From Paenibacillus sp. FSL H7-0331 (GTDB taxonomy: Bacteria > Bacillota > Bacilli > Paenibacillales > NBRC-103111), in contig NZ_MRTH01000092.1 in assembly GCF_001956045.1 (NCBI RefSeq), positions 1-8,110 of the forward strand: DNA of 8,110 nucleotides. Reading direction: 5' to 3'. A program made the translations under genes and the position numbers. This document shows positions 82-7,905 of the stretch, one piece after another. The notes below the pieces were generated by a model, which was given only the letters and a program-made list of their open reading frames with translations, was not told where the DNA came from and did not search any database. How positions within the stretch are numbered: position 1 is the first letter of the stretch; every line of letters starts with the position of its first letter.

Positions 82-158
82 CCTCCCGTTACTTGAAAGA
101 ACAAAAATAGCGGAGCTTCAGTGATGCAGTCTCCGCTATAGTTCGCCGTTACTTTAAC
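82..158 (-). repeat. composite array repeat, copy 1 (box - hairpin - box)
   Basis: Two same-direction boxes flank a hairpin. The left box (82-102) contains CCCGTTACTTGAA. The right box (136-158) contains CTATAGTT followed by CGCCGTTACTTTAAC. Between them is a perfect 8-bp stem TAGCGGAG/CTCCGCTA (108-115 with 131-138). The right box ends five bases from the stop codon of the GNAT gene. The same arrangement recurs after most minus-strand genes in the window. Confidence 0.8.
101..138 (-). terminator. probable intrinsic terminator of the 163-750 gene
   Basis: On the minus strand, the 8-bp stem TAGCGGAG/CTCCGCTA (131-138 with 108-115, loop of 15) is followed directly by TTTTTGTT. That is the usual form of a factor-independent terminator for the acetyltransferase gene ending at 163. 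Confidence 0.65.
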
Positions 159-162
159 GGAA

Positions 163-750
163 CTAAAACTTAGCTTCCCACTCACTTTTACCAAGCTTGT
201 AATAATTATATCTCTCGTCTTCTAATTCAATAACGCTTTGAAAATTAAACCCGCATTTTTGTATAACTCTATTTGACGGTACGTTTCGTAAAAGAGCAAT
301 TGCATTGAGCATCTCAACGTTGGTGTTCTCAAATAAATACTTGGCTAACCCCTCTGTAGCTTGCGTGGTATAACCTTTACCTCTATGATCCTTTGAGATT
401 GCAAACATAATTTCTCGGTTTGGAGCCGGCAATTCCTGTTTAATTCCTGTACAGCACCAACCGATAAAATCTCCCGATGCTTTCAATATGATTCCCAGCC
501 GAAGACGAAGTTCACCTATGACCCCACCTTCGGATACGGTATTTAGAAACTGTTTGTTTCCAGGTATTTCATAATTCGTTAACCAATCTTCCCGCTGTTC
601 TTTAGATACGTTCCAACCAGGTAAGTATTCGTGTATTTCAGGTTGCCATGTTAAAGAATGAAATTGATTCAGATCATCAAGTGTGTACTCTCTTAGGTAG
701 ACATCCTTACATTCAATAGTAAAGATATTTTTATCGCTCAACGTCTTCAC
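163..750 (-). CDS. GNAT family N-acetyltransferase (RimJ/RimL type)
   Basis: Predicted cytosolic acetyltransferase that moves an acetyl group from acetyl-CoA to an amino group; the acceptor cannot be told from sequence. The 195-residue length and order fit the RimJ/RimL branch: an N-terminal strand 'VYLREYTLDDLNQFH' (about 17-31), core strand with 'FIGWCCTGI' (95-103), then the acetyl-CoA pyrophosphate loop HRGKGY (122-127) within 'FAISKDHRGKGYTTQA', and the C-terminal 'NVPSNRVIQKCGF' (156-168) typical of the family. The 750 start is a GTG with no good ribosome binding site. A TTG at 741 has AGGGTGA about five bases upstream and may be the real start, giving 192 residues. The gene stands alone between two array repeats. 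Family is clear, substrate unknown. Confidence 0.88.
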   Translation of the reverse strand: MKTLSDKNIFTIECKDVYLREYTLDDLNQFHSLTWQPEIHEYLPGWNVSKEQREDWLTNYEIPGNKQFLNTVSEGGVIGELRLRLGIILKASGDFIGWCCTGIKQELPAPNREIMFAISKDHRGKGYTTQATEGLAKYLFENTNVEMLNAIALLRNVPSNRVIQKCGFNFQSVIELEDERYNYYKLGKSEWEAKF

Positions 751-782
751 CCTATCAGCTGGTATTTGTTTCCATAACTATT

Positions 783-799
783 GTAACATATCGTGTTAC
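783..799. promoter_or_regulatory. inverted repeat upstream of the GNAT gene
   Basis: GTAACA-TATCG-TGTTAC is a perfect 6-bp inverted repeat about 35 to 50 bases upstream of the acetyltransferase start. It could be an operator or a chance palindrome. No regulator is encoded next to it. Confidence 0.25.
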
Positions 800-826
800 T
801 GTCGTAGTTGATAAGGTTTAGTTATT

Positions 827-925
827 GCTAAACTATCCTCCCGTTACTTAAATCAAAACAGGGAGTAGCTGCCGATGCAATCTATTCCCTGTTTATTGTG
901 CTATCGTATCCGTTAGTCAAATAAG
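827..925 (-). repeat. composite array repeat, copy 2
   Basis: The left box (about 827-856) reads GCTAAACTATCCTCCCGTTA, continuing into CTTAAATCAA. The hairpin stem is at 856-868 with 882-894. The right box (901-920) is CTATCGTATCCGTTAGTCAA and runs up to the stop codon of the next gene. The left edge GCTAAACT is shared with the copy at 7184, so the conserved element extends beyond the CCGTTA core. Confidence 0.78.
853..894 (-). terminator. hairpin terminator of the phospholipase-like gene
   Basis: A 9-bp perfect stem AAACAGGGA/TCCCTGTTT (856-864 with 886-894) extends by four further pairs, including one G-T pair, around a 13-base loop. On the minus strand it ends in TTTTGATTT, which fits a weak intrinsic terminator. 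Confidence 0.55.
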
Positions 926-1560
926 GCATATGGGTTCATCTTAATATTTCCAGTAACGAATAATGGTCGACAAACATCCAATGCACGATAAGCCGAGCGT
1001 TCTAAGTATGCCAATATCTCTTCGAACGAAAAAATGCTCAACTCTTGCTCAATGTGTCCAATTGGATAGTTAAAGTCGTCCAGTGCATGTTTCTTAAATT
1101 CTAATACATTCTTCTCATCAAGTTCTTCGATACTTGGTATGTACACAGCGGAATTTAGGGCTTCGTAAAGTCCATCTGAAGCATATTTTTCATTTAGCTT
1201 CGCATCACACAATCGAAAGTCTTGGTGATAACGCTCGTACAGTGTTGGGTCGTTCTTTATCCTCTCTTCAAAACCACTAAAATAAGACTTCATTGCCCAA
1301 ACTTCATCCGCGACCAAATGGGTTAAATAACCCAACATAAAAGGCTCAGTGATACGCTCCTTATATTTCATGATGAACCGACCGTATTCCCATCGCCTGT
1401 TGACGCCATACTTAAATTGATCTCCTACGAAATGGGTATCGTTTTTTTCTGATATTGCATCTGGTGCTATCGCTCCAAGGAGCATTTCACCACGTTGTTT
1501 GATTGACAACTCCTTGCAAACAAAATCTGAAATCAACAAATGCATAAACCTAGACCCCAT
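913..1560 (-). CDS. zinc-dependent phospholipase C family protein
   Basis: 215 residues resembling the Zn_dep_PLPC family (bacterial zinc phospholipase C / S1-P1 nuclease fold). Visible family features are an N-terminal 'GSRFMHLLISDFV' with His7, 'GAIAPDA' (29-35) with Asp34, 'DTHF' with His43, and 'LGYLTHLVADEVW' (76-88) with His81 and Asp85. These are likely metal ligands. No signal peptide is seen, so unlike secreted phospholipases this one should stay in the cytosol, and the true substrate is unknown. The ATG at 1560 has GGGGG eight bases upstream, which supports the start. The gene stands alone, with repeat copy 2 just after its stop. Confidence 0.75.
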   Translation of the reverse strand: MGSRFMHLLISDFVCKELSIKQRGEMLLGAIAPDAISEKNDTHFVGDQFKYGVNRRWEYGRFIMKYKERITEPFMLGYLTHLVADEVWAMKSYFSGFEERIKNDPTLYERYHQDFRLCDAKLNEKYASDGLYEALNSAVYIPSIEELDEKNVLEFKKHALDDFNYPIGHIEQELSIFSFEEILAYLERSAYRALDVCRPLFVTGNIKMNPYALFD

Positions 1561-1627
1561 TTAATCATCCCCCTTTATATCAATTCCAACTATCTTATTG
1601 CAACAATAATACCATATGTTGGAAGTT

Positions 1628-1652
1628 GAAGTTCAACAAATCTGCCCGTCCC
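1628..1652 (-). repeat. isolated array box upstream of the phospholipase-like gene
   Basis: The plus strand reads GAAGTTCAACAAATCTGCCC followed by GT. The TCAACAA and CTGCCCGT pieces match parts of the array boxes. No hairpin or partner box follows. Instead the decayed transposase begins within about 60 bases, so this may be half of a repeat unit broken by the insertion sequence or by deletion. Confidence 0.35.
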
Positions 1653-1707
1653 TCGGTTTTAACGGTTTATCTAACGTATTCTCACTCATTCGCAGGATTT
1701 CATCACC

Positions 1708-2103
1708 TTAAAAATAACGATCACCTGGATCACTCTTGGAAGGGCTATTATCTCGATTCTCCTTGTTTCTTTTGGTGGTAGCTGGATTCACTAGGACGAC
1801 GTTCGAGCCTTTGTTTGTAAGTCAATTCGCTAAGTTCCACCAATAATGCCCAGTGGGTTCCATGCCAATGATTACACTATTCAAACGGTGCTTTTGCTTA
1901 ATTCCCTCTATCCAACGCTGAAGCTTTTCAAAGCCTTATATGGTGTTACTAAATGAGAGATGTCGATTCGAGAGAACGATTCCGCGGAAATTCGTAGCTT
2001 GTGCGACATGAGTTTCTTTAGCCATATCGATACCTACAACTAGATGAGATGTGGTAATTCGTTCAATTCGTTGATTTTGTACTTCTGATTGTTTAAACTT
2101 CAT
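1708..2103 (-). pseudogene. IS110-family transposase, 5' remnant with in-frame stops
   Basis: From ATG 2103, with AAGGAGG upstream, the minus strand reads 'MKFKQSEVQNQRIERI', then 'LVVGIDMAKETHVAQA', the start of the RuvC-like DEDD domain with the first acidic residue in GIDMAKE. It continues to 'IGMEPTGHYWWNLA' and 'VVLVNPATTKR', both hallmarks of IS110-family DEDD recombinases. The frame is broken by TAA at 1936-1938 (codon 56) and TGA at 1822-1824 (codon 94), and ends at TAA 1708-1710 soon after 'DNSPSKSDP'. The remaining part of the RuvC-like domain and the whole C-terminal serine-containing domain are absent. It is therefore an inactive fragment of about one third of a normal transposase. 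Confidence 0.88.
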
Positions 2104-2108
2104 AATAA

Positions 2109-2177
2109 GAGCGCCTCCTTGATGGTGTTGGGTTTTAAACCCGGGACAAACCCATCATACCGAGGCGCTCCTTTTTT
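2109..2177. other. IS110 leader stem-loop (possible relic of bridge-RNA region or terminator)
   Basis: A 9-bp perfect stem GAGCGCCTC/GAGGCGCTC (2109-2117 with 2162-2170) encloses an inner pairing GGGTTT/AAACCC (2130-2135 with 2137-2142) and GATG/CATC. On the plus strand it is followed by CTTTTTT, so it could stop plus-strand readthrough into the element. The transposase ribosome binding site (AAGGAGG on the minus strand) lies in one arm, so folding would also hide it. This would suit suppression of transposase translation from outside transcripts. Confidence 0.55.
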
Positions 2178-2202
2178 GACAAAGGCCATTTCTTAGCCCT
2201 AA

Positions 2203-2288
2203 CAGGAATGTTTAGCACAACACGACTGCCGATCCGTGCCGAAAGCCGCGTTCTTGTTGAGCTATAGTTATCTGTTAGATTAATGAAC
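2203..2288 (-). repeat. composite array repeat, copy 3 (decayed hairpin)
   Basis: The left box is degenerate (GGAATGTTTAGCACAAC). The hairpin region (about 2222-2251) has mismatched arms. The right box (2262-2288) starts CTATAGTTATCTGTTAGATT. Positions 2213-2251 match 2953-2991 with 5 differences in 39 bases, so copies 3 and 4, which bracket the ydjM-like gene, are each other's closest relatives in the window. Confidence 0.7.
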
Positions 2289-2430
2289 GTGGAATAATAT
2301 CATGTTAGAGCTTCTTCTTTCTAAGAACATAATACCTCTCCACATTTTATTAGCTTGTTTTTCAAAGCTACGGACCATTTTCCGGATAACGCCCGAATAC
2401 TATATGGTTGAAATAAGAATATGTCGTACA

Positions 2431-2434
2431 GGAG
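2431..2434 (+). promoter_or_regulatory. ribosome binding site deciding the ydjM-like start
   Basis: GGAG lies seven bases before the ATG at 2442. The upstream in-frame ATG at 2421 has no purine-rich site before it, so 2442 is preferred. Confidence 0.65.
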
Positions 2435-2441
2435 CGTTATC

Positions 2442-2936
2442 ATGCTGCAAAAAACTCATAGCGTCGCCGGATTAGTAGCCGCCGAGCTTGTACTCGTTCA
2501 TCAGGATGTACCGTTTCTATCGTGGGAGGCTGTCGGCGCTCTGCTGCTTGGCTGTTTAGCCGGTACGCTGGCTGACGTCGATAAGCAAGGCTCCACTATG
2601 GCAAAGGTTCTCTATCCTATATCCGCTCTATTAAAGATTTTAAAGGTTCGCCACCGGTCAATAACCCATTCCATTCTCTTTATACTGGTATTGATGTTTG
2701 TGACGGTTCCTTTGCCTGCATTGTTTTTCTTGACGTTTGTCGTCGCATACGTCTCGCACCCGCTCATTGATTTGCTCAATCACAGAGGCGTCGAACTATT
2801 CTGGCCGCTCAAACTGCATATCCGCTTGCTCCCGAAGTTTATGGCGATCGATACAGGCTCCCTTGGGGAAAACGTGGTTCGCTGGCTTCTGCTTGCCATT
2901 AGCCTCTGGATTCCGTTTTCGACGATCATTTCTTAA
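2442..2936 (+). CDS. YdjM-like membrane-bound metal-dependent hydrolase
   Basis: A 164-residue integral membrane protein of the YdjM / LexA-regulated membrane hydrolase family. Candidate metal ligands visible: His6 in 'MLQKTHSVAG', Asp45 and Asp47 in 'LADVDKQGS', His71 and His76 in 'HRSITHS', and His106 and Asp110 in 'SHPLIDLLNHRGVELFWP', the family signature. Hydrophobic segments lie near 29-44, 77-103 and 146-163. The biochemical role of the family is not established; a phospholipid or related substrate is plausible. An in-frame ATG at 2421 would add seven residues but lacks a ribosome binding site. It is the only plus-strand gene in the window, and it looks richer in G+C than its neighbours. 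Repeat copies 3 and 4 bracket it, which suggests a separately acquired unit inserted in inverted orientation. Confidence 0.85.
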   Translation: MLQKTHSVAGLVAAELVLVHQDVPFLSWEAVGALLLGCLAGTLADVDKQGSTMAKVLYPISALLKILKVRHRSITHSILFILVLMFVTVPLPALFFLTFVVAYVSHPLIDLLNHRGVELFWPLKLHIRLLPKFMAIDTGSLGENVVRWLLLAISLWIPFSTIIS

Positions 2937-2944
2937 GGTAAAAA

Positions 2945-3033
2945 CTGCCAGTTAGCACAACGCGGCTGCCGATCCATGCCGGCAGCCGCGTCTCAGGTTG
3001 TTTATTATGCTATAGGTACTCCGTTAGCTTAAC
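2945..3033 (-). repeat. composite array repeat, copy 4
   Basis: The left box CTGCCAGTTAGCACAAC (2945-2961) is followed by a strong hairpin at 2961-2990 and the right box at 3010-3033 (CTATAGGTACTCCGTTAGCT, continuing into TAACA). It lies between the convergent ydjM-like and Nudix genes, so it is placed to terminate both. Confidence 0.78.
2960..2991. terminator. strong hairpin between convergent genes
   Basis: An 11-bp perfect GC-rich stem CGCGGCTGCCG/CGGCAGCCGCG (2961-2971 with 2980-2990) has an 8-base loop, and an outer A-T pair makes it 12. Neither side has a clean T run (TCTCAGG on plus, TTGTGC on minus). It may stop transcription poorly or act mainly as an RNA-end stabiliser, or as a recombination structure. 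Confidence 0.5.
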
Positions 3034-3046
3034 AAACAAACACCAT

Positions 3047-3673
3047 CTAGAAGGAATAATTCAAATCGTTTAAAACATATTTAAGCCATTCATTTTGTGG
3101 AGAAACAATCTCAGGTAACTCATCGAGCGGAGACCAGAATAATTTAAATGTATGATTATCTGCTTCTTGTTCCCATTTATTTAAATTACTATTTGAATGA
3201 AAGTGGTAAAAATGTCTTGAGACTTTTGAGGCTAAATGTGATTCCTCCACCCAACCTGTTATTTGATAGGTTATGTAGTTGGGATCAGGATATTTATCTC
3301 CTTCTATGTACGACACTTGTACAAATTCCCCGTGTCTGCGTTCTTGTTGTACAGTGATACCCCTTCTAATTTCTGCCCATTGGGAGCTTGACAAGTCGGG
3401 TCTTGAGAAGACCTTCGTCTTTTGAAAAACAATGTACTTACCTAATAAGTTAATCTCTTGCTTCCCAATATAGTTACATGTAATAAATCCATCTAAACCT
3501 GTTTCTTCAAAAGATTCTCGCAAAGCAGCTTGTTTGAAATCTTCGTTTAATTCCACTGTGCCTGCTGGTAATTGTATACCAGCATTGGGATGTTGAATTA
3601 GAAGGAGTTCAATTTTCGTATCAGTTTCCCTAGTGATAAAACAAGTGACTTTACCTAGTACATTATGTTGCAT
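3047..3673 (-). CDS. Nudix hydrolase
   Basis: 208 residues. Nudix enzymes cleave nucleoside diphosphates linked to another moiety, using Mg2+. The full Nudix box is present at 38-60: Gly38, Glu44, Arg52-Glu53, Glu56-Glu57 and Gly59, in 'GTVELNEDFKQAALRE' and 'SFEETGL', with Ser54 where a hydrophobic residue is usual. The preceding 'IQLPAGTVE' and the N-terminal 'VTCFITRE' strand fit the fold. The C-terminal part (about 120-208) is longer than a minimal Nudix domain and includes 'LFWSPLDELPE', the usual closing strand. GAGGTG lies five bases before the ATG at 3673. Substrate cannot be predicted. The other two Nudix proteins in the window are not close copies of this one. Confidence 0.9.
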   Translation of the reverse strand: MQHNVLGKVTCFITRETDTKIELLLIQHPNAGIQLPAGTVELNEDFKQAALRESFEETGLDGFITCNYIGKQEINLLGKYIVFQKTKVFSRPDLSSSQWAEIRRGITVQQERRHGEFVQVSYIEGDKYPDPNYITYQITGWVEESHLASKVSRHFYHFHSNSNLNKWEQEADNHTFKLFWSPLDELPEIVSPQNEWLKYVLNDLNYSF

Positions 3674-3721
3674 TTTTCACCTCATATTTTAATATTTTTT
3701 ATAATTATTACCAAATTATAT

Positions 3722-3788
3722 TGCCACAGGCAGCCAAAAATGCCGACCGCCTGTTCGTCATGAAGCTATAGTCTTTCGTTAGTTCAAC
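3722..3788 (-). repeat. composite array repeat, copy 5
   Basis: The left box is degenerate (TTGCCACAGGCAGCC). A short stem ACAGGC/GCCTGT (3726-3731 with 3749-3754) is followed by a well conserved right box at 3766-3788 (CTATAGTCTTTCGTTAGTTC then AAC), which runs through the stop codon of the next gene. Confidence 0.68.
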
Positions 3789-4255
3789 CTAAACTCCATT
3801 TTTCTACTCTTCGTTGTCATTCCGAATGATTCATAAAATAAAATTGCAGAAGCATTTTTCTCCGATACCCCTAGTTCAATACTATCAACCTTCAGGCTTC
3901 CTCCGAAATCAATAACATATTGCATAAGTCTCTTTCCAACGCCCTTATTTCTGTACGTTTCGGAAACACACAAACTATTTACATATAATATCTTTCTCGC
4001 ATTCACAAATGAATTTTCAGTTATGTCTTCTTCCTTCGTCACAACTACTCCGATTATCTCTAAGCCTATGGTAGCAACAAAAATATGCTGTTTGAGATCA
4101 ACTAGCTGGCTTAAGAAGAATTCTTTCCCGACTGGAGTTGGGTTTTCTTTATACAAATCGGGTCTTTCAAAAACGTGTAGATCATGAACCTGTTTGAACA
4201 AAGGTAACAAAGACTCGTAGTCATCTTGATGAGCACTTCGGATTGATATTTCCAT
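3779..4255 (-). CDS. GNAT family N-acetyltransferase
   Basis: 158-residue single-domain acetyltransferase using acetyl-CoA; acceptor unknown. It starts 'MEISIRSAHQDDYESLL', the typical GNAT first strand and helix. Strand 4 with motif A is 'LYVNSLCVSETYRNKGVGKRLM' split across 90-111, where R-N-K-G-V-G (102-107) is the pyrophosphate-binding loop. Motif B follows as 'ELGVSEKNASAILFYESFGM' (127-146), with the usual Asn and Tyr. The start at 4255 is chosen because GGGGAGG lies four bases upstream; an ATG at 4279 has none. A possible promoter, TTGGTT (4301-4306) and TAAAAT (4280-4285), has a short 15-base spacer. The protein is not a close relative of the first acetyltransferase. Its stop lies inside the right box of repeat copy 5. 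Confidence 0.9.
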   Translation of the reverse strand: MEISIRSAHQDDYESLLPLFKQVHDLHVFERPDLYKENPTPVGKEFFLSQLVDLKQHIFVATIGLEIIGVVVTKEEDITENSFVNARKILYVNSLCVSETYRNKGVGKRLMQYVIDFGGSLKVDSIELGVSEKNASAILFYESFGMTTKSRKMEFRLN

Positions 4256-4325
4256 ATTTCCTCCCCGATCAGTTAACATATTTTACCACGCTTACTCTTT
4301 AACCAAAATAGTTTTATTGAGCATA

Positions 4326-4400
4326 CCTGTCCGTTACTTCAAAGGACAAGAGGAGCTGCCACGTAGCAAGTTCCTCCACTATAGTATCCGTGAGTAGAAC
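4326..4400 (-). repeat. composite array repeat, copy 6
   Basis: The left box is CCTGTCCGTTACTTCAAAGG (4326-4345). A short stem GAGGA/TCCTC (4350-4354 with 4372-4376) encloses CTGCC. The right box is CTATAGTATCCGTGAGTAGA then AC (4379-4400). The copy lies directly after the stop of the Nudix gene at 4407. Confidence 0.7.
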
Positions 4401-4406
4401 GAAGTT

Positions 4407-4904
4407 TTAGCACTTATTTCTATAATCGAACTGTCCTGACACAACGGGAAGTGTTCTTGACCTTATCCAATCAACCGCTTGTAATACCAACGGGGATGAA
4501 TTATCAAGATTTACGTTTGTTAGGGACATCCAAAGAGCCCCTTTAGAATCTTGTTCTTCGAATGCTTCTACAGAACTGACTTGTTCCCAAGAGTCAACAC
4601 TTGCTTCATACAGCACGGCGATGTGATGTAAATGTTCAACTGTGTTATTCTTTAGGGTCCACAATACAAAAAAATCGCTAACACCAATACTTTTAAGCTC
4701 TTTAATCGTATGTCCTGTTTCTTCCCGAAACTCTCGTTTAACGGCAAGCTCTAGGGATTCCATAGTCTCTAATCGTCCACCTGGCAAATCAAATTTCCCA
4801 GTATATGGACCTAAAATTTTTCTGATAACTAGTAAGCGTTCATTATCTACGCTAATTCCGTAAACACCAATATGACGATAAAAATTGTCGGTGATACCAT
4901 CCAT
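4407..4904 (-). CDS. Nudix hydrolase
   Basis: 165 residues from the chosen start. A complete Nudix box spans 43-65: Gly43, Glu49, Arg57-Glu58, Glu61-Glu62 and Gly64, in 'GGRLETMESLELAVKRE' and 'FREETGH'. It is preceded by 'GPYTGKFDLPGG', the usual substrate-loop region, and an early strand 'HIGVYGISVDNERLLVIRK'. This pattern resembles Nudix proteins that act on modified nucleotides, but no specific substrate can be claimed. The start at 4904 is favoured because AGGGGG lies eight bases upstream; the longer frame from 4940 lacks a site. The last residues (SGQFDYRNKC) run up to repeat copy 6. Confidence 0.9.
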   Translation of the reverse strand: MDGITDNFYRHIGVYGISVDNERLLVIRKILGPYTGKFDLPGGRLETMESLELAVKREFREETGHTIKELKSIGVSDFFVLWTLKNNTVEHLHHIAVLYEASVDSWEQVSSVEAFEEQDSKGALWMSLTNVNLDNSSPLVLQAVDWIRSRTLPVVSGQFDYRNKC

Positions 4905-4983
4905 ACACATATCCCCCTGGCATATCTGACCTGAAACCATTTCTTAATCACTTACCACAAAACAAACTCCTTTTATTACGTTA

Positions 4984-5043
4984 ACCTGCCCATAGTTGAG
5001 AAAGGCAGCCGATCATCTGGCCGGCTGCCTTCCTGTGCTTTTA
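4984..5043 (-). repeat. composite array repeat, copy 7 (right box degenerate)
   Basis: The left box ACCTGCCCATAGTTGAG (4984-5000) is followed by a strong hairpin at 5002-5031. Where the right box is expected there is only TTTTATTGATTGCGG, so this copy appears decayed or of a different subtype. Confidence 0.6.
5002..5031. terminator. strong hairpin, likely terminator or transcript barrier
   Basis: A 10-bp perfect stem AAGGCAGCCG/CGGCTGCCTT (5002-5011 with 5022-5031) has a 10-base loop. On the minus strand it is followed by TCTCAAC after the TTT contributed by the stem itself. It sits upstream of the Nudix gene at 4904, insulating it from the unit on its right. Confidence 0.55.
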
Positions 5044-5145
5044 TTGATTGCGGTAAAGTTGTATATTTATTCCACATGGTTCCTGTATTTCCTGCTTTCG
5101 TGAATTTATATGCTTGAAAGTGCACACGAAACGATTGAACTATTC
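5041..5145 (-). pseudogene. short array unit with only a possible gene remnant
   Basis: About 100 bases lie between repeat copies 7 and 8 with no intact gene. One minus-strand frame ends 'RKQEIQEPCGINIQLYRNQ' with a TAA at 5041-5043, exactly where a cassette gene would stop relative to copy 7. It has no start codon or ribosome binding site and no recognisable family. It may be the tail of a deleted gene or simple non-coding sequence. Confidence 0.25.
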
Positions 5146-5220
5146 TGCCAGTTAGCGTAGCGATGGGCTACCACGCGGCAGCCCTTCTGGCATTGAACTA
5201 TCGTTCGCCGTTAGTTCAAT
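5137..5220 (-). repeat. composite array repeat, copy 8
   Basis: The left box is GAACTATTCTGCCAGTTAGC (5137-5156). A nested hairpin has outer stem TGCCAG/CTGGCA (5146-5151 with 5187-5192) and inner stem GGGCT/AGCCC (5165-5169 with 5180-5184). The right box, CTATCGTTCGCCGTTAGTTC then AAT (5198-5220), is the one closest to the consensus in the window. In this copy the outer stem uses bases of the left box itself. Confidence 0.8.
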
Positions 5221-5255
5221 GATGCAAGTGCCCCAAAAATGGGAACCCTTTGTTG

Positions 5256-5810
5256 TTACCCAAGCCATTCTTTAAATTCATGTACCCTCCAATCGTGTTT
5301 ATTGATTAGCCTCTCGTCTTTCAAAACAACTTCATGTGCATGTCTAATTAATTGACTTCCTTCCAATTGAATTCCTTCCTGTAAGTCGGTCAATACACCA
5401 TCACACAATAAAGCGAGCGTAGCTGCCGAATACCATCCCATTCTAAATTCAAAACTATCCTGGGCACTTATGTAAAAACTTATTTCAGTTTCCGCTTCTC
5501 TTAGTTTCTTCTCAATTGAACTCAGTGGTTGCTGTTTGCCAAATATCTTTGTGAAAAAGGTTCCCTTCTTACCCTTTACTTCAATACGTCTAACAACCAA
5601 TTCAAATCCTGTCATCAATTCGATATTATTCAGACTTCTGTTAGGGCAATCATAGATGACAACCTTGAAGGGAAGAAATCCTGAATGATTATTGAATGAA
5701 AAACCAGGATATACTTCTACATCCATATTAAACTTTCCTATTTGAGACAACCATTCAGGAATAATACTATCATTTAATCCTTTAAGGTGGACAGAGAGAT
5801 CGTAACTCAT
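5256..5810 (-). CDS. hypothetical protein, MSYDL-type N-terminus
   Basis: 184 residues, family not recognised with confidence. It begins MSYDLSVHLKG, a start shared with several small uncharacterised bacterial proteins and with the gene at 6536-7003. It continues through 'VEVYPGFSF' and 'HSGFLPFKVVIY' (32-54), a lysine-rich stretch near 79-92, and 'EFRMGWYSAATLALLCDGVL' (121-140), the most hydrophobic part. No signal peptide and no clear transmembrane segment, so probably cytosolic. GAAGGAG lies six bases before the ATG at 5810, supporting the start, and TATAAT is present about 30 bases further upstream. Proteins of this kind sometimes occur with immunity or toxin-system genes; that link is only suggested by the next gene. 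Confidence 0.75.
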   Translation of the reverse strand: MSYDLSVHLKGLNDSIIPEWLSQIGKFNMDVEVYPGFSFNNHSGFLPFKVVIYDCPNRSLNNIELMTGFELVVRRIEVKGKKGTFFTKIFGKQQPLSSIEKKLREAETEISFYISAQDSFEFRMGWYSAATLALLCDGVLTDLQEGIQLEGSQLIRHAHEVVLKDERLINKHDWRVHEFKEWLG

Positions 5811-6038
5811 ATACTTCTCCTTCTACTGGAATAATGTATTATATTAGTTCAGTATACGTCAGTTCCCTTTTCATGTAATAAGAAACTCCACTATCATGCC
5901 CTTTCGCTTAATGGCGCTTGGCCAATCTAATACTTTATTTTCAATGATCACTAGTTCTTATTGAACTGGCATGCTGGTAGCAAAAATTATCTAAATGTTC
6001 TTTGGTATATACAGATATCGCTCAATCGTAGGCGAGCG
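5811..6038. other. intergenic stretch without a clear repeat unit
   Basis: 228 bases with no intact gene. It contains TATAAT and the ribosome binding site of the gene at 5810, and a partial box-like TTAGTTCAGTATACGTCAGT near 5844-5863, but no typical hairpin. This is one of the few gene junctions in the window lacking a good array repeat. Confidence 0.4.
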
Positions 6039-6377
6039 TCATGCTAATCTTTCAATTTCATCTTGTAATTCCTGATCCCAAATGAATTCCATATCAAATG
6101 CTCCGTCAGGTTGTACAGAAAAAACAGCTCTGTTCCATTTATTATTCCCGCCTTCAGTCGTTATTTTATGAAGTTCAAGAACATCAAATGTTAGTTGAAA
6201 ATCAAATTCATCTACATCTATTTGTATTGTTTCATTTTTATTGTTCAAATAATTTCCTGTGAAACTAACCATTTCACCAATCACTTCAATATCTAATTTT
6301 GCTTTCACCCACTCTCCATTAATTACAGTGCTAATATTGGTTACAATAGATTCATAAATTTTGTCGACTGTTTTCAT
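6039..6377 (-). CDS. small YezG-like protein (possible immunity protein)
   Basis: 112 residues. The layout resembles the YezG/DUF600 family, whose Bacillus member is the antitoxin of an LXG toxin. There is an N-terminal helix 'KIYESIVTNISTVINGEW', then strands 'AKLDIEVIGEMVSFTGNYL', then the C-terminal 'KWNRAVFSVQPDGAFDMEF' followed by 'IWDQELQDEIERL'. Similarity is judged by eye, so the assignment is tentative. A longer frame opens with GTG at 6386, but that GTG is part of the ribosome binding site AAAGGTGG, so ATG 6377 is the likely start. The last 43 residues are nearly repeated in the gene at 6536-7003. No toxin gene is next to it. Confidence 0.6.
   Translation of the reverse strand: MKTVDKIYESIVTNISTVINGEWVKAKLDIEVIGEMVSFTGNYLNNKNETIQIDVDEFDFQLTFDVLELHKITTEGGNNKWNRAVFSVQPDGAFDMEFIWDQELQDEIERLA
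6042..6170 (-). repeat. duplicated coding segment, copy A
   Basis: Matches 6542-6670 without gaps at an offset of exactly 500 bases, with about 12 differences in 129 positions by eye. It encodes the shared C-terminus, from LHKITTEGG to DEIERLA. Similarity falls away just past 6170. Confidence 0.85.
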
Positions 6378-6487
6378 ATTTACCACCTTTCGCTATTTTG
6401 TGCCGTTGTTGATTTGTGCAAAGCATTGTGCCACAGCTTCATCAGCAGCTAAATTGCTCGCCTTTTATTTTAAGATACTAACAGGGT

Positions 6488-6510
6488 TCCATGGAATTAT
6501 TTACCATGGA
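6488..6510. other. short hairpin downstream of the chimeric gene
   Basis: A perfect 7-bp stem TCCATGG/CCATGGA (6488-6494 with 6504-6510) with a 9-base AT-rich loop lies about 25 bases past the stop at 6536. There is no T run on the minus strand, so it is at best a weak terminator. It differs from the array hairpins. Confidence 0.35.
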
Positions 6511-6535
6511 TATTAATTTTAAATCATAACATTAA

Positions 6536-7003
6536 CTATTTTGCTAATCTTTCAATTTCATCTTGTAATTCCTGATCCCAAATAAATTTCATATCAAATG
6601 CTCCGTCTGGTTGTACAGAAAAAACAGCCTTGTTCCACTTGTTATTACCTCCTTCTGTAGTTATTTCATGTAATTCCCAGTAAAACAATGCGTCGAATAC
6701 CTTATACCCATCATTGTTTAATATAGTTCTAATTTCAGTTTCAAATAAAAGTTGTTCCTTAACGAACCTCTTAGTCAAAAATTCAATTTTATACTCTGCA
6801 ATCTTCTCCTTAATCTCTACATTCATATTAGGAAAATGCTCTGACAGCTTTTGGTATAAGCGATGCAACGTTTCGGAGCAGACCAAAGGATCATTATAAT
6901 CATGATTTTCCGACCATTGTACTTCCTGATCATACCACTGCATAAATGCCCTCCGATCCCTCGGCGCCTTAGATGGCTCGAAAACCATCAAATCATAGCT
7001 CAT
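6536..7003 (-). CDS. chimeric protein: MSYDL-type N-terminus joined to a YezG-like C-terminus
   Basis: 155 residues in two parts. Residues 1-60, starting MSYDLMVFEPSKAPRDR and ending near 'LSEHFPNMN', match the N-terminus of a widespread uncharacterised family in which 'FPPMNGP' and about 70 further residues normally follow. After that point the sequence changes to a charged stretch (61-108) and a C-terminus 'LHEITTEGGNNKWNKAV' onward (about 111-154), almost the same as the end of the neighbouring gene. The ATG at 7003 has TAGGAGGT seven bases upstream. The frame is intact, so a fusion protein can be made; whether it is functional is unknown. The family description is from memory. Confidence 0.7.
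   Translation of the reverse strand: MSYDLMVFEPSKAPRDRRAFMQWYDQEVQWSENHDYNDPLVCSETLHRLYQKLSEHFPNMNVEIKEKIAEYKIEFLTKRFVKEQLLFETEIRTILNNDGYKVFDALFYWELHEITTEGGNNKWNKAVFSVQPDGAFDMKFIWDQELQDEIERLAK
6542..6670 (-). repeat. duplicated coding segment, copy B
   Basis: Partner of 6042-6170. Several differences are synonymous or conservative (Arg/Lys, Glu/Lys), which suggests some time under coding constraint after the duplication or acquisition from a sister gene. Confidence 0.85.
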
Positions 7004-7043
7004 TTGAAGACCTCCTAGATAGATTACTACTGCTGGAATAATA

Positions 7044-7066
7044 ACAATTGTTCGCCGTTAGCTATT
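7044..7066 (-). repeat. single array box upstream of the chimeric gene
   Basis: AATTGTTCGCCGTTAGCTAT resembles the right box of the composite repeat, but no hairpin or partner box adjoins it. It lies about 40 bases upstream of the start codon at 7003. About 120 bases of unassigned sequence separate it from copy 9, so this may mark a unit that has lost its gene. Confidence 0.5.
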
Positions 7067-7183
7067 TTTCCTGACTCTGTCATCTATAATGCGGTTCACA
7101 CCTCTATAATTAAGAAAGATACATTTTCGGTGAGGTGATATGAAAATCCTCTATTTTTAACAGTAGATCGTCTTGTTTTCTCC

Positions 7184-7277
7184 GCTAAACTGCCCAGTTA
7201 GGTGAACAAAGGCTGCCGTTCGTACTGGCAGCCTAGTTCTTATTGTTTGTTGAGCTCTCGTTTCCCGTTAGTTCAAC
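7184..7277 (-). repeat. composite array repeat, copy 9
   Basis: The left box is GCTAAACTGCCCAGTTAGGT then GAAC (7184-7207). The hairpin has stem GGCTGCC/GGCAGCC (7211-7217 with 7227-7233), and GAAC/GTTC flanks allow further pairing. The right box is CTCTCGTTTCCCGTTAGTTC then AAC (7255-7277). This is the cleanest full copy in the window. It ends about 14 bases from the stop of the third Nudix gene. Confidence 0.82.
7203..7238 (-). terminator. intrinsic terminator of the third Nudix gene
   Basis: A 7-bp perfect stem GGCTGCC/GGCAGCC with a 9-base loop is followed on the minus strand by TTTGTTC. It lies inside repeat copy 9, so the terminator is part of the repeat. Confidence 0.6.
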
Positions 7278-7291
7278 AAAATGATGAAATT

Positions 7292-7777
7292 TTAGAATCT
7301 AAATTTTGAATATGGTTCAATCCTACGGCTTATATAATATTCTTTTAAAAAATCTTTGAGTGTTTGAGGAAACTTTAGATCATTTATTTCGCTGTCTTGC
7401 TTTAAAGACTCTATTATTGTTGAAATATCCAACCATTCAAATCCAATCTGTGCAACATCATTCTGTAAATGAGTGATCTTATCTTCAACTTCAAAGGAAC
7501 AGTGAAAGATGAATTCAATTGCGTGTACTTGTTTAACTAAAAAAGAATACTCGTGATTATTAGAAATATATTCCCTAACGCAAACCAATTCTTTTATTTT
7601 TGCCTTAATATTTAATTCTTCATTGCATTCGCGTAGAATAGTATCTTCAATTGTCTCACCTGATTCTTGCCCACCACCGGGCAAAGTATAATAAATGCCT
7701 ACTTTATCAAGTTTTTTCTTAATAAAAAGTAGCTTATTATCATATTCAATAATTGCTTTTGCTGTATTCCTAACCAA
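7292..7777 (-). CDS. Nudix hydrolase with probable TTG start
   Basis: 161 residues from the chosen start. Residues 35-57 form the Nudix box, in 'GGGQESGETIEDTILRE' and 'CNEELNI': Gly35, Glu41, Arg49-Glu50 and Glu53-Glu54. The usual Gly near its end is replaced by Asn56. The metal-binding glutamates are kept, so activity is expected. It is preceded by 'VGIYYTLPGGG', as in the family. The start is a TTG at 7777 with AGGAGGG six bases upstream; the longer frame begins with another TTG at 7807 that lacks a site and overlaps an array box. Very AT-rich compared with the ydjM-like gene. Substrate unknown. Confidence 0.88.
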   Translation of the reverse strand: MVRNTAKAIIEYDNKLLFIKKKLDKVGIYYTLPGGGQESGETIEDTILRECNEELNIKAKIKELVCVREYISNNHEYSFLVKQVHAIEFIFHCSFEVEDKITHLQNDVAQIGFEWLDISTIIESLKQDSEINDLKFPQTLKDFLKEYYISRRIEPYSKFRF

Positions 7778-7790
7778 AATGTTCCCTCCT
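7778..7790 (-). promoter_or_regulatory. ribosome binding site deciding the TTG start at 7777
   Basis: AGGAGGG on the minus strand (7784-7790) is followed by AACATT and then TTG. No ATG or GTG in this frame is as well placed. Confidence 0.65.
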
Positions 7791-7807
7791 GGATCGAAGT
7801 CACTCAA

Positions 7808-7826
7808 CTATCGTTTCCCGTTTATT
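7808..7826 (-). repeat. single array box upstream of the third Nudix gene
   Basis: CTATCGTTTCCCGTTTATT is a right-box match, closest to copy 9 (CTCTCGTTTCCCGTTAGTT). No left box with a GGCTGCC-type hairpin follows. An imperfect stem CTAGTAAGG/CCTACTAG (about 7842-7850 with 7873-7880) lies between it and the HIT gene and may replace the usual hairpin. Confidence 0.5.
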
Positions 7827-7905
7827 TTTTCCCCAATCCTCTAGTAAGGCCTACGTACACTCAGGTTCATCTCCTACTAGGGATATCTTTCGCTCCTCCT
7901 AGATC

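Follow-up and report, generated by a model that had tools for sequence, protein, structure and literature searches.

What separates the short, unrelated genes of an 8,110-nucleotide stretch of Paenibacillus sp. FSL H7-0331 DNA (contig NZ_MRTH01000092.1; the whole stretch is called here the window), and can these genes be exchanged one by one? A sequence-only reading had described in it a cassette-like array, in which nine copies of one composite repeat (box, hairpin, box) lie between single accessory genes, and had supposed that units are exchanged by recombination at the repeats. Our analysis confirms the former observation and supports the latter interpretation, neither of the two outcomes proposed there as refuting it having been seen. 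Judging from comparisons with related genomes, we consider it probable that the window is a part of a Bacillales gene-cassette array working by site-specific recombination, with the recombinase provided from a linker. In our reading, such arrays form an integron-like cassette system of Bacillales that has no name as yet; no earlier description of them was found in the accessible parts of the open-access literature, subscription papers and preprints being mostly outside our search.

Composite repeats and the units bounded by them

Read on the strand of the genes, which is the minus strand of the window, a full copy of the repeat consists of box A, a G/C-rich hairpin linker and box B. The two boxes (consensus TTnARCTAACGGGnnACGATAGYTnAA and TTnARCTAACGGGCAGnnTAGTTnAA, respectively) are 26-27 bp long and related, yet distinct. 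All nine full or recognisable copies lie where the sequence-only reading had placed them, not all of them being complete. A position weight matrix (PWM) built from 536 sites of box A and 501 of box B (a few of them from the window itself) gave 13 boxes with scores above 8 and 14 above 3, every one on the minus strand; in 100 dinucleotide shuffles of the window the respective means were 0.4 (maximum 2) and 2.0 (maximum 6). A scan of the window with Rfam gave no family at E ≤ 1. Over the loci collected from relatives, 733 of 943 box A sites have the stop codon of an open reading frame (ORF) in the range from 400 bp ahead of the box start to 30 bp beyond it, the median being 33 bp ahead.

The variable positions of 187 composites form three linkage blocks: the left arm of box A; the right arm of box A together with the hairpin and the left arm of box B; and the right arm of box B. 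The breaks fall within the cores of both boxes; positions A24 and B2 are linked with a z of 19.5, and the left arm of box A is unlinked to the right arm of the same box. Composites with homologous upstream or downstream genes make up 98 and 53 pairs, one comparison of a box with itself being excluded. Homology on both sides was found in just one of 150 pairs, formed by two repeats lying 100 bp apart in one locus; the gene order is not kept between relatives, in line with the earlier supposition. For the pairs that stay in register as far as the box (54 of 98 and 31 of 53; out-of-register pairs were dropped), the excess of identity at box A falls from 0.78 ahead of the box and 0.69 in its left arm to 0.01 in the core and 0.04 in the right arm; at box B it rises from 0.11 ahead of the box and 0.17 in its left arm to 0.75 from the core on and 0.80 beyond the box. 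In a larger set with at least 85% identity (82 and 69 pairs, 49 and 49 gene groups), the same switch is placed in CTAACGGG. The identity of gene copies ends inside this shared core, upstream in box B and downstream in box A, i.e., at a fixed place of the boxes, which argues for the exchange of units at the repeats.

As to the linkers, among genes at least 90% identical the adjoining linker is shared (at least 85% identity) in 3 of 72 pairs after the gene and in 3 of 56 before it, compared with 1 of 400 random pairs on each side; for genes at least 98% identical the respective figures are 3 of 22 and 2 of 21. Since linkers are so rarely shared between gene copies, gene units appear to move mostly without them. 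This refines the idea of the unit: the one moved most is, as these comparisons suggest, the gene with its half-boxes and without the hairpin. As read from linkage and breakpoints, the arrays alternate gene units (the gene between half-boxes R_B and L) with short linkers (the hairpin between half-boxes R_A and L). In a set of 131 segments of at least 200 bp and at least 92% identity, a box crossover is no more than 14 bp away from 86 of 250 query-side ends, compared with 3.5% for nearby positions picked at random. Both ends are at boxes in both copies in 17 segments, typed as B-to-A (8), B-to-B (5) or otherwise (4); by eye, about 12 run from box B to box A, several of the ends typed "B" belonging to a box A whose overlap is one base shorter. 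Segments mostly start at B and end at A, but a few include a linker as well; strict pairing of box A with box B in recombination was considered as a possible rule.

The folding of the repeat was considered as well. The twelve partner combinations listed for the arms pair about as often as by chance (at most 66 versus 60.4 expected; 61 Watson-Crick pairs in 210 versus 60.6 expected may serve as an example), and the one position pair above chance (114 versus 82.4) does not join partner positions and was put down to linkage. RNAalifold gave no consensus pair for the repeats, which is a weak result, since the visible central hairpin was missed too. The covariation counts thus lend no support to covarying hairpins within the boxes, to base pairing between the two boxes or to folding of the entire repeat in the manner of attC. 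Stems of at least 7 bp are formed by 505 of 520 linkers and by 448 of 520 shuffled ones, and a T-run follows the stem in 117 of 520 linkers; the hairpin makes a weak candidate for a terminator, since shuffled linkers mostly form stems and T-runs are confined to this number. In L011, L101 and L103 a second type of linker, ACAGCGACAGTCTAGGA...TGTCGCTGTT or near it, was seen by eye in place of the GGCAGCC hairpin.

The recombinase of the linkers and its possible action

No recombinase was found among the ten window ORFs scanned, as the sequence-only reading had stated; this statement does not extend to the relatives, where a recombinase sits inside the linker. The position of its gene relative to the boxes indicates that some linkers hold a predicted Xer-like tyrosine recombinase of about 280 aa (roughly 280-302 aa among those encoded within arrays) in place of the hairpin. 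Most of the Paenibacillus copies occupy this place between the two boxes: at 17 of 21 5' ends (3.9% in control windows) the start of the recombinase is preceded by a box A that begins 81-104 bp upstream, and box B begins 21-65 bp past the last codon at 16 of 23 3' ends (3.2% in control windows). At the four failing 5' ends box-like sequences with indels are visible by eye, as they are at the failing 3' end of L100. One gene end, 99% identical in two contigs, is followed by a hairpin linker in one of them and by a recombinase linker in the other. In one array the recombinase gene stands at the end.

The array recombinase exceeds the cut-off of PF00589, has XerD (1a0p) as the nearest solved chain (E 1.6e-32) and aligns with it through STGCRIGEV, GKGSKQRE, PHRFRHTYA and LGHEKSSTTQIY, which we take to be the catalytic positions (R, K, HxxR, H/W, Y). 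By sequence it qualifies as a member of the Xer/tyrosine recombinase superfamily. Three array recombinases score below the NCBIfam cut-offs for XerD (at most 192.4 versus 329.6 bits) and XerC (at most 187.7 versus 335.15 bits), and array recombinases also stay below those for XerA and the integron integrase.

The sequence-only reading had suggested looking for a co-distributed tyrosine recombinase, and such an enzyme was found. Its clade (at least 68% identity, the next matches being 31-35% identical) is present in 24 of 148 family genomes, all 24 of which have repeats; at least one repeat hit occurs in 104 of the 148. At least 27 repeats are found in 13 of the 24 genomes versus 4 of the 124 without the clade (Fisher p 2.8e-9, an optimistic value, as the genomes are related by descent). 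Relatives of the recombinase at E ≤ 1e-45 were detected in 45 of 199 Bacillales genomes, most being 49-56% and a few only 36-39% identical. In L233-L240, Bacillaceae relatives lie beside box-like sites, those of L233-L235 being opposite in direction to the cassettes. We infer the activity of the array recombinase and regard it as the likely swapping enzyme.

The recombinase encoded in one linker would act on all sites, cutting in the CTAACGGG core, and would excise, insert or exchange single gene units. Such excision, insertion and exchange could follow from the structure of the sites, because a box B is restored where L meets R_B, and a box A where L meets R_A. A gene circle would carry L-R_B, that is, box B, and a linker circle would carry L-R_A, that is, box A; single gene units could then move by A x B excision and insertion. 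Alternatively, the exchange might occur at both sides through a cointegrate, as proposed for dif modules in PMC13141974. Hairpin linkers would in this case represent non-autonomous forms of the recombinase-bearing linker.

Arrays of the relatives and genes of the window

The exact box A pattern occurs at no fewer than 120 loci, mostly of Paenibacillus and some of Cohnella and Bacillaceae; the families affected are Paenibacillaceae and Bacillaceae. A repeat model using sequence without structure found, in ten genomes, at least 150 copies in three, 131 and 44 in two and 1-11 in five. In the relatives, the repeats follow varied accessory genes and are arranged in arrays on one strand: 793 of them occur in 2.04 Mb of loci (132 sequences selected as repeat-bearing and not a random sample), and 563 of 569 neighbours within 3 kb have the same strand, the median gap being 781 bp. 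Strain FJAT-28004 has 106 repeats without mutual overlap, all on one strand, at 2.644-2.864 Mb of the contig (220 kb), after 17 plus-strand hits, each overlapping a minus-strand hit of the same repeat, were dropped. The gaps between them (83 of 105 below 2 kb, twelve above 5 kb, the longest of 22.9 kb) point to an array with other DNA between its parts. Its 97 minus-strand ORFs of 80-600 aa that lie no more than 200 bp from a box match 77 Pfam families, the commonest being NUDIX with four ORFs, and PADLOC assigned to them 21 families with at most four ORFs each, mostly weakly; the gene load is diverse and accessory.

Several details of the relatives deserve mention. In L212, a 574-bp gene unit is present twice in tandem (708-1281 and 1327-1900, 100% identical) with one short linker between the copies. 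Gene units of L006, L010, L014 and G003C1, among others, have by eye a common 5' motif directly after box B, TTCCAATATGTGGTATTATAA or TTTCGCGAATAC...TTACGAAGTTCG, possibly representing common promoters or operators. Two IMG/VR contigs, L001 and L002, carry full repeats (two pattern matches), which could be either prophage-borne cassettes or host flanks.

In the complete 6.9-Mb genome G049 C1, the 103 repeat hits (from 150 of 1478 candidates scored) all fall within 1.47-3.43 Mb rather than being evenly spread. They are all on the plus strand below 1.813 Mb and all on the minus strand above 1.816 Mb; a recombinase gene lies at 1.8132 Mb, and the GC skew, sampled together with ORF strands in 25 stretches of 20 kb, flips its sign at 1.80-1.82 Mb and back at 4.8-5.4 Mb. 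The strand switch together with the skew suggests that the repeats are in leading-strand orientation on either side of the likely terminus. The latter is placed by GC skew, because a Firmicutes dif consensus had no match in five genomes at up to 3 mismatches. On the other hand, a scan for single boxes shows opposite ones (one in the L244 array and two in L249), and the general coding bias is strong, with about 55-100% of ORF length on the leading strand per stretch, so only part of the leading-strand pattern is special.

Of the ten long ORFs scanned in the window itself, nine are on the minus strand, like all scored boxes, which bears out the one-strand bias noticed earlier; the exception is the gene of a YdjM-like membrane protein (2421-2936, plus), inverted relative to the array. 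The claim that the copies mostly sit just after a stop codon stands for most genes and fails for ORF 6536-7003, with no repeat directly after its stop codon. As for the gene content, GNAT, NUDIX and YezG-like genes were found as claimed, and the phospholipase-like match remained below the Pfam cut-off (24.4 versus 26.8 bits).

All features described below are on the minus strand. Composite repeat 1 (78-157; box A at 131-157, hairpin and a B-like half-box at about 81-97) follows the GNAT acetyltransferase gene 163-750; the region 136-849 matches L272 at 79%, its ends lying 13 and 6 bp from the box crossovers there. Repeat 2 (833-921; box A with a 6-nt overlap at 896-921, hairpin and, by eye, box B at about 833-852) follows the Zn-dependent phospholipase C (PLC)-like gene 913-1560. 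In L265 and L266 the PLC-like unit (909-1649) recurs at 94-95% identity between other linkers; box B bounds these copies at 1 bp and box A at 4 and 13 bp. Repeat 3 (2204-2283) has box A at 2257-2283, a hairpin and a box B that looks degenerate by eye. Repeat 4 (2935-3033; box A by eye at about 3010-3033, hairpin, box B at 2935-2960) precedes the coordinates of a NUDIX gene (3047-3673), and repeat 5 (3722-3787) has box A at 3761-3787 and a hairpin without box B. The next GNAT gene, 3779-4279, belongs to a region (3777-4288) 91% identical in L267 and L270; the downstream end of the match is in the box core, after which the sequences differ, and the upstream end is 45-76 bp short of box B. In repeat 6 (4317-4399) the PWM finds box A, with a 6-nt overlap, at 4374-4399 and box B at 4317-4342 around the hairpin; a second NUDIX gene is located at 4407-4940. 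Repeat 7 (4976-5040) retains a hairpin and a weak box B (4976-5001), its box A being unrecognisable, while repeat 8 (5135-5219) is the best preserved one, with PWM-detected box A at 5193-5219, hairpin and box B at 5135-5160.

The 184-aa ORF 5256-5810 has no Pfam match; the region 5190-5871 is 85% identical in L266, and a solo, weaker box B found by the PWM (5886-5911) lies upstream of this unit. The YezG-like immunity-type gene (6039-6386) and the adjacent 155-aa ORF 6536-7003, which has no Pfam match, share 135-bp ends (6042-6176 and 6542-6676) that are 90% identical; judging by this identity, it is a partial tandem duplication of the YezG-like gene. Repeat 9 (7180-7276) comprises box A (7250-7276), a hairpin and a box at 7180-7206, typed as A by the PWM (score 11.1) and as B by its place. 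The third NUDIX gene lies at 7292-7807, and a solo box A (7803-7829) marks the 3' edge of the unit of the HIT gene, which extends beyond the window edge; homology to two other genomes stops at 7822. In L267, which yielded only one box, about 415 bp separate the HIT gene from the GNAT gene, their order being reversed relative to the window. Comparison of the window with 394 family genomes (two candidates scored per genome) gave a match in 216, many of them being the HIT gene or a fragment of an insertion sequence (IS). On the whole, the sequence matches of the window genes fit box-bounded unit exchange, with exceptions.

The IS fragment (1650-2216, minus) belongs by eye to an IS110-type transposase, and its edge abuts the R half of box B at 1649. 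The part 1727-2215 is present in many Paenibacillaceae genomes, and in L269 an end similar to that of the fragment lies downstream of the HIT gene. By analogy with IS1202-family elements, which target pdif (plasmid dif) sites according to PMC10132070, the element may target box cores. A plasmid search in the near mode gave a single 76-bp match, at the IS end, on a Paenibacillus rhizovicinus plasmid.

Alternative explanations and known systems

Several observations weigh against the cassette array as we understand it. The switch of identity is narrowed to the 8-bp CTAACGGG core and not to one cut base, and a few moves take the linker along (about three of the 17 segments by eye). With an excess of 0.10 and 0.21, the overlap dinucleotide of box A is hardly common to gene copies; this makes a strict requirement for identical overlaps doubtful and is a poor fit to the spacer identity of Xer/dif systems. 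For easy movement as free circles of double-stranded DNA, linkers of about 70 bp look too short. At 7 of 23 recombinase 3' ends there is no box B above the threshold; a full-length recombinase match without stop codons is present in 12 of the 24 genomes, the rest having fragments or broken genes; and 80 of the 124 genomes without the clade still carry repeats, four of them at least 27, so that decay or another enzyme is possible. Matches to window genes in L268, L271, L273 and L283 have no detectable box, hence some of these genes also exist outside arrays. Finally, the comparison covered one genome per species, without observed activity, circle or in-strain rearrangement.

Part of these observations would also agree with recombination of the boxes by the host XerC and XerD, as in dif modules, the array recombinase being a mere passenger. 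According to PMC13141974, XerCD can shuffle genes between Xer sites in Acinetobacter dif modules; the array enzyme is itself Xer-like, and many genomes bear repeats without it. We nevertheless find this explanation unlikely, as the boxes look by eye unlike the pdif sites printed there, neighbouring repeats are in one orientation, the repeat number tracks the array enzyme, which usually occupies a linker itself, and this enzyme is only 32% and 26% identical to two host Xer-like proteins of one genome. Still less likely is a divergent integron or a CALIN (cluster of attC sites lacking integron integrases), with attC sites moved in trans by an integron integrase. One-gene units, long one-strand arrays, the gene content and a GTTAG-like core are all reminiscent of it, and the array enzyme does score weakly, with 90.5 bits, on the integron-integrase model; this is, however, the maximum for TIGR02249 among three array recombinases, to which the search for IntI was confined, versus a cut-off of 265, the arms lack base-pair covariation at the partner positions tested, and the crossovers occur at both boxes and not at one end of a single folded site.

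Two further explanations were considered. The linkers alone might be mobile, as miniature inverted-repeat transposable elements (MITEs) with an autonomous recombinase-bearing form, and separate stationary genes. Linkers have indeed common sequence types, and the recombinase is inside one linker form; yet the same gene with its half-box stands beside different linkers (49 gene groups on each side), neighbours are not kept, and the nearly uniform strand of neighbouring repeats (563 of 569) also argues against it, which makes this explanation very improbable. As to a generic terminator or intergenic repeat family, between whose copies genes are reshuffled by homologous recombination, it would account for hairpins after stop codons and for the T-runs in 117 of 520 linkers. 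However, the breakpoints are clustered in an 8-bp core, far shorter than homologous recombination needs, and the 103 hits of the complete genome are confined to 1.47-3.43 of 6.9 Mb; we give this possibility practically no credit.

Returning to the cassette array, we lean slightly towards a separate invention of cassette shuffling in Bacillales, in which gene units and linker units, both mobile, alternate and the recombinase moves in the form of a linker. Single genes would be inserted or swapped with neither their hairpin nor overlap identity, and the arrays around the terminus would follow the leading strand, whereby replication may present the substrate. If this is true, Firmicutes possess an independent gene-exchange platform, with more than 100 repeats in one region of one strain. 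How a gene first gets joined to a recombination site is an open question in integrons; the clean separation of the gene unit from the recombination-site spacer would make the origin of this joining testable. For cassette exchange in laboratory strains, the recombinase together with the two short sites might also make a useful tool to try.

Of the known systems, MITEs have autonomous partners, and the short non-coding linkers similarly share their ends with a longer recombinase-encoding form; unlike in MITEs, the enzyme is a tyrosine recombinase and the flanking genes are the units moving most. Neither terminal inverted repeats nor target duplications came to notice, no dedicated search for them being made. 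The dif modules of Acinetobacter plasmids, as described in PMC13141974, are likewise gene modules bounded by two Xer-type core sites, and replacement of a single module was modelled there as two successive recombinations, one on each side. They depend on host XerC/XerD and have two site orientations and identical or near-identical 6-bp spacers, whereas the arrays described here are chromosomal, with more than 100 repeats, and have one orientation, two site types, little overlap identity and a predicted enzyme of their own. In place of the 28-bp XerC-6 bp-XerD site there are boxes of 26-27 bp with arms TTnARCTAAC (the limits of arms and spacer being our reading), unlike the sites in Table 1 of that article, and boxes A and B point the same way, where the sites on the two sides of a dif module are opposite.

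Integrons are very rare in Firmicutes: according to PMC9024848, IntegronFinder 2.0 detected one complete integron and a few CALINs there. Like integrons, among them sedentary superintegrons and CALINs, the arrays are long, one-stranded and composed of reassorting single accessory genes, with a short conserved core and a tyrosine recombinase, some being devoid of the enzyme. The differences are that the enzyme is Xer-like and below the integron-integrase cut-off, that two inverted-repeat boxes without covariation replace one folded attC with covarying R''/R' and L''/L', that the gene mostly moves without the hairpin, and that the enzyme gene is inside the spacer unit. Of the features tested, key ones of integrons and dif modules are thus lacking; both are nonetheless the closest systems by function.

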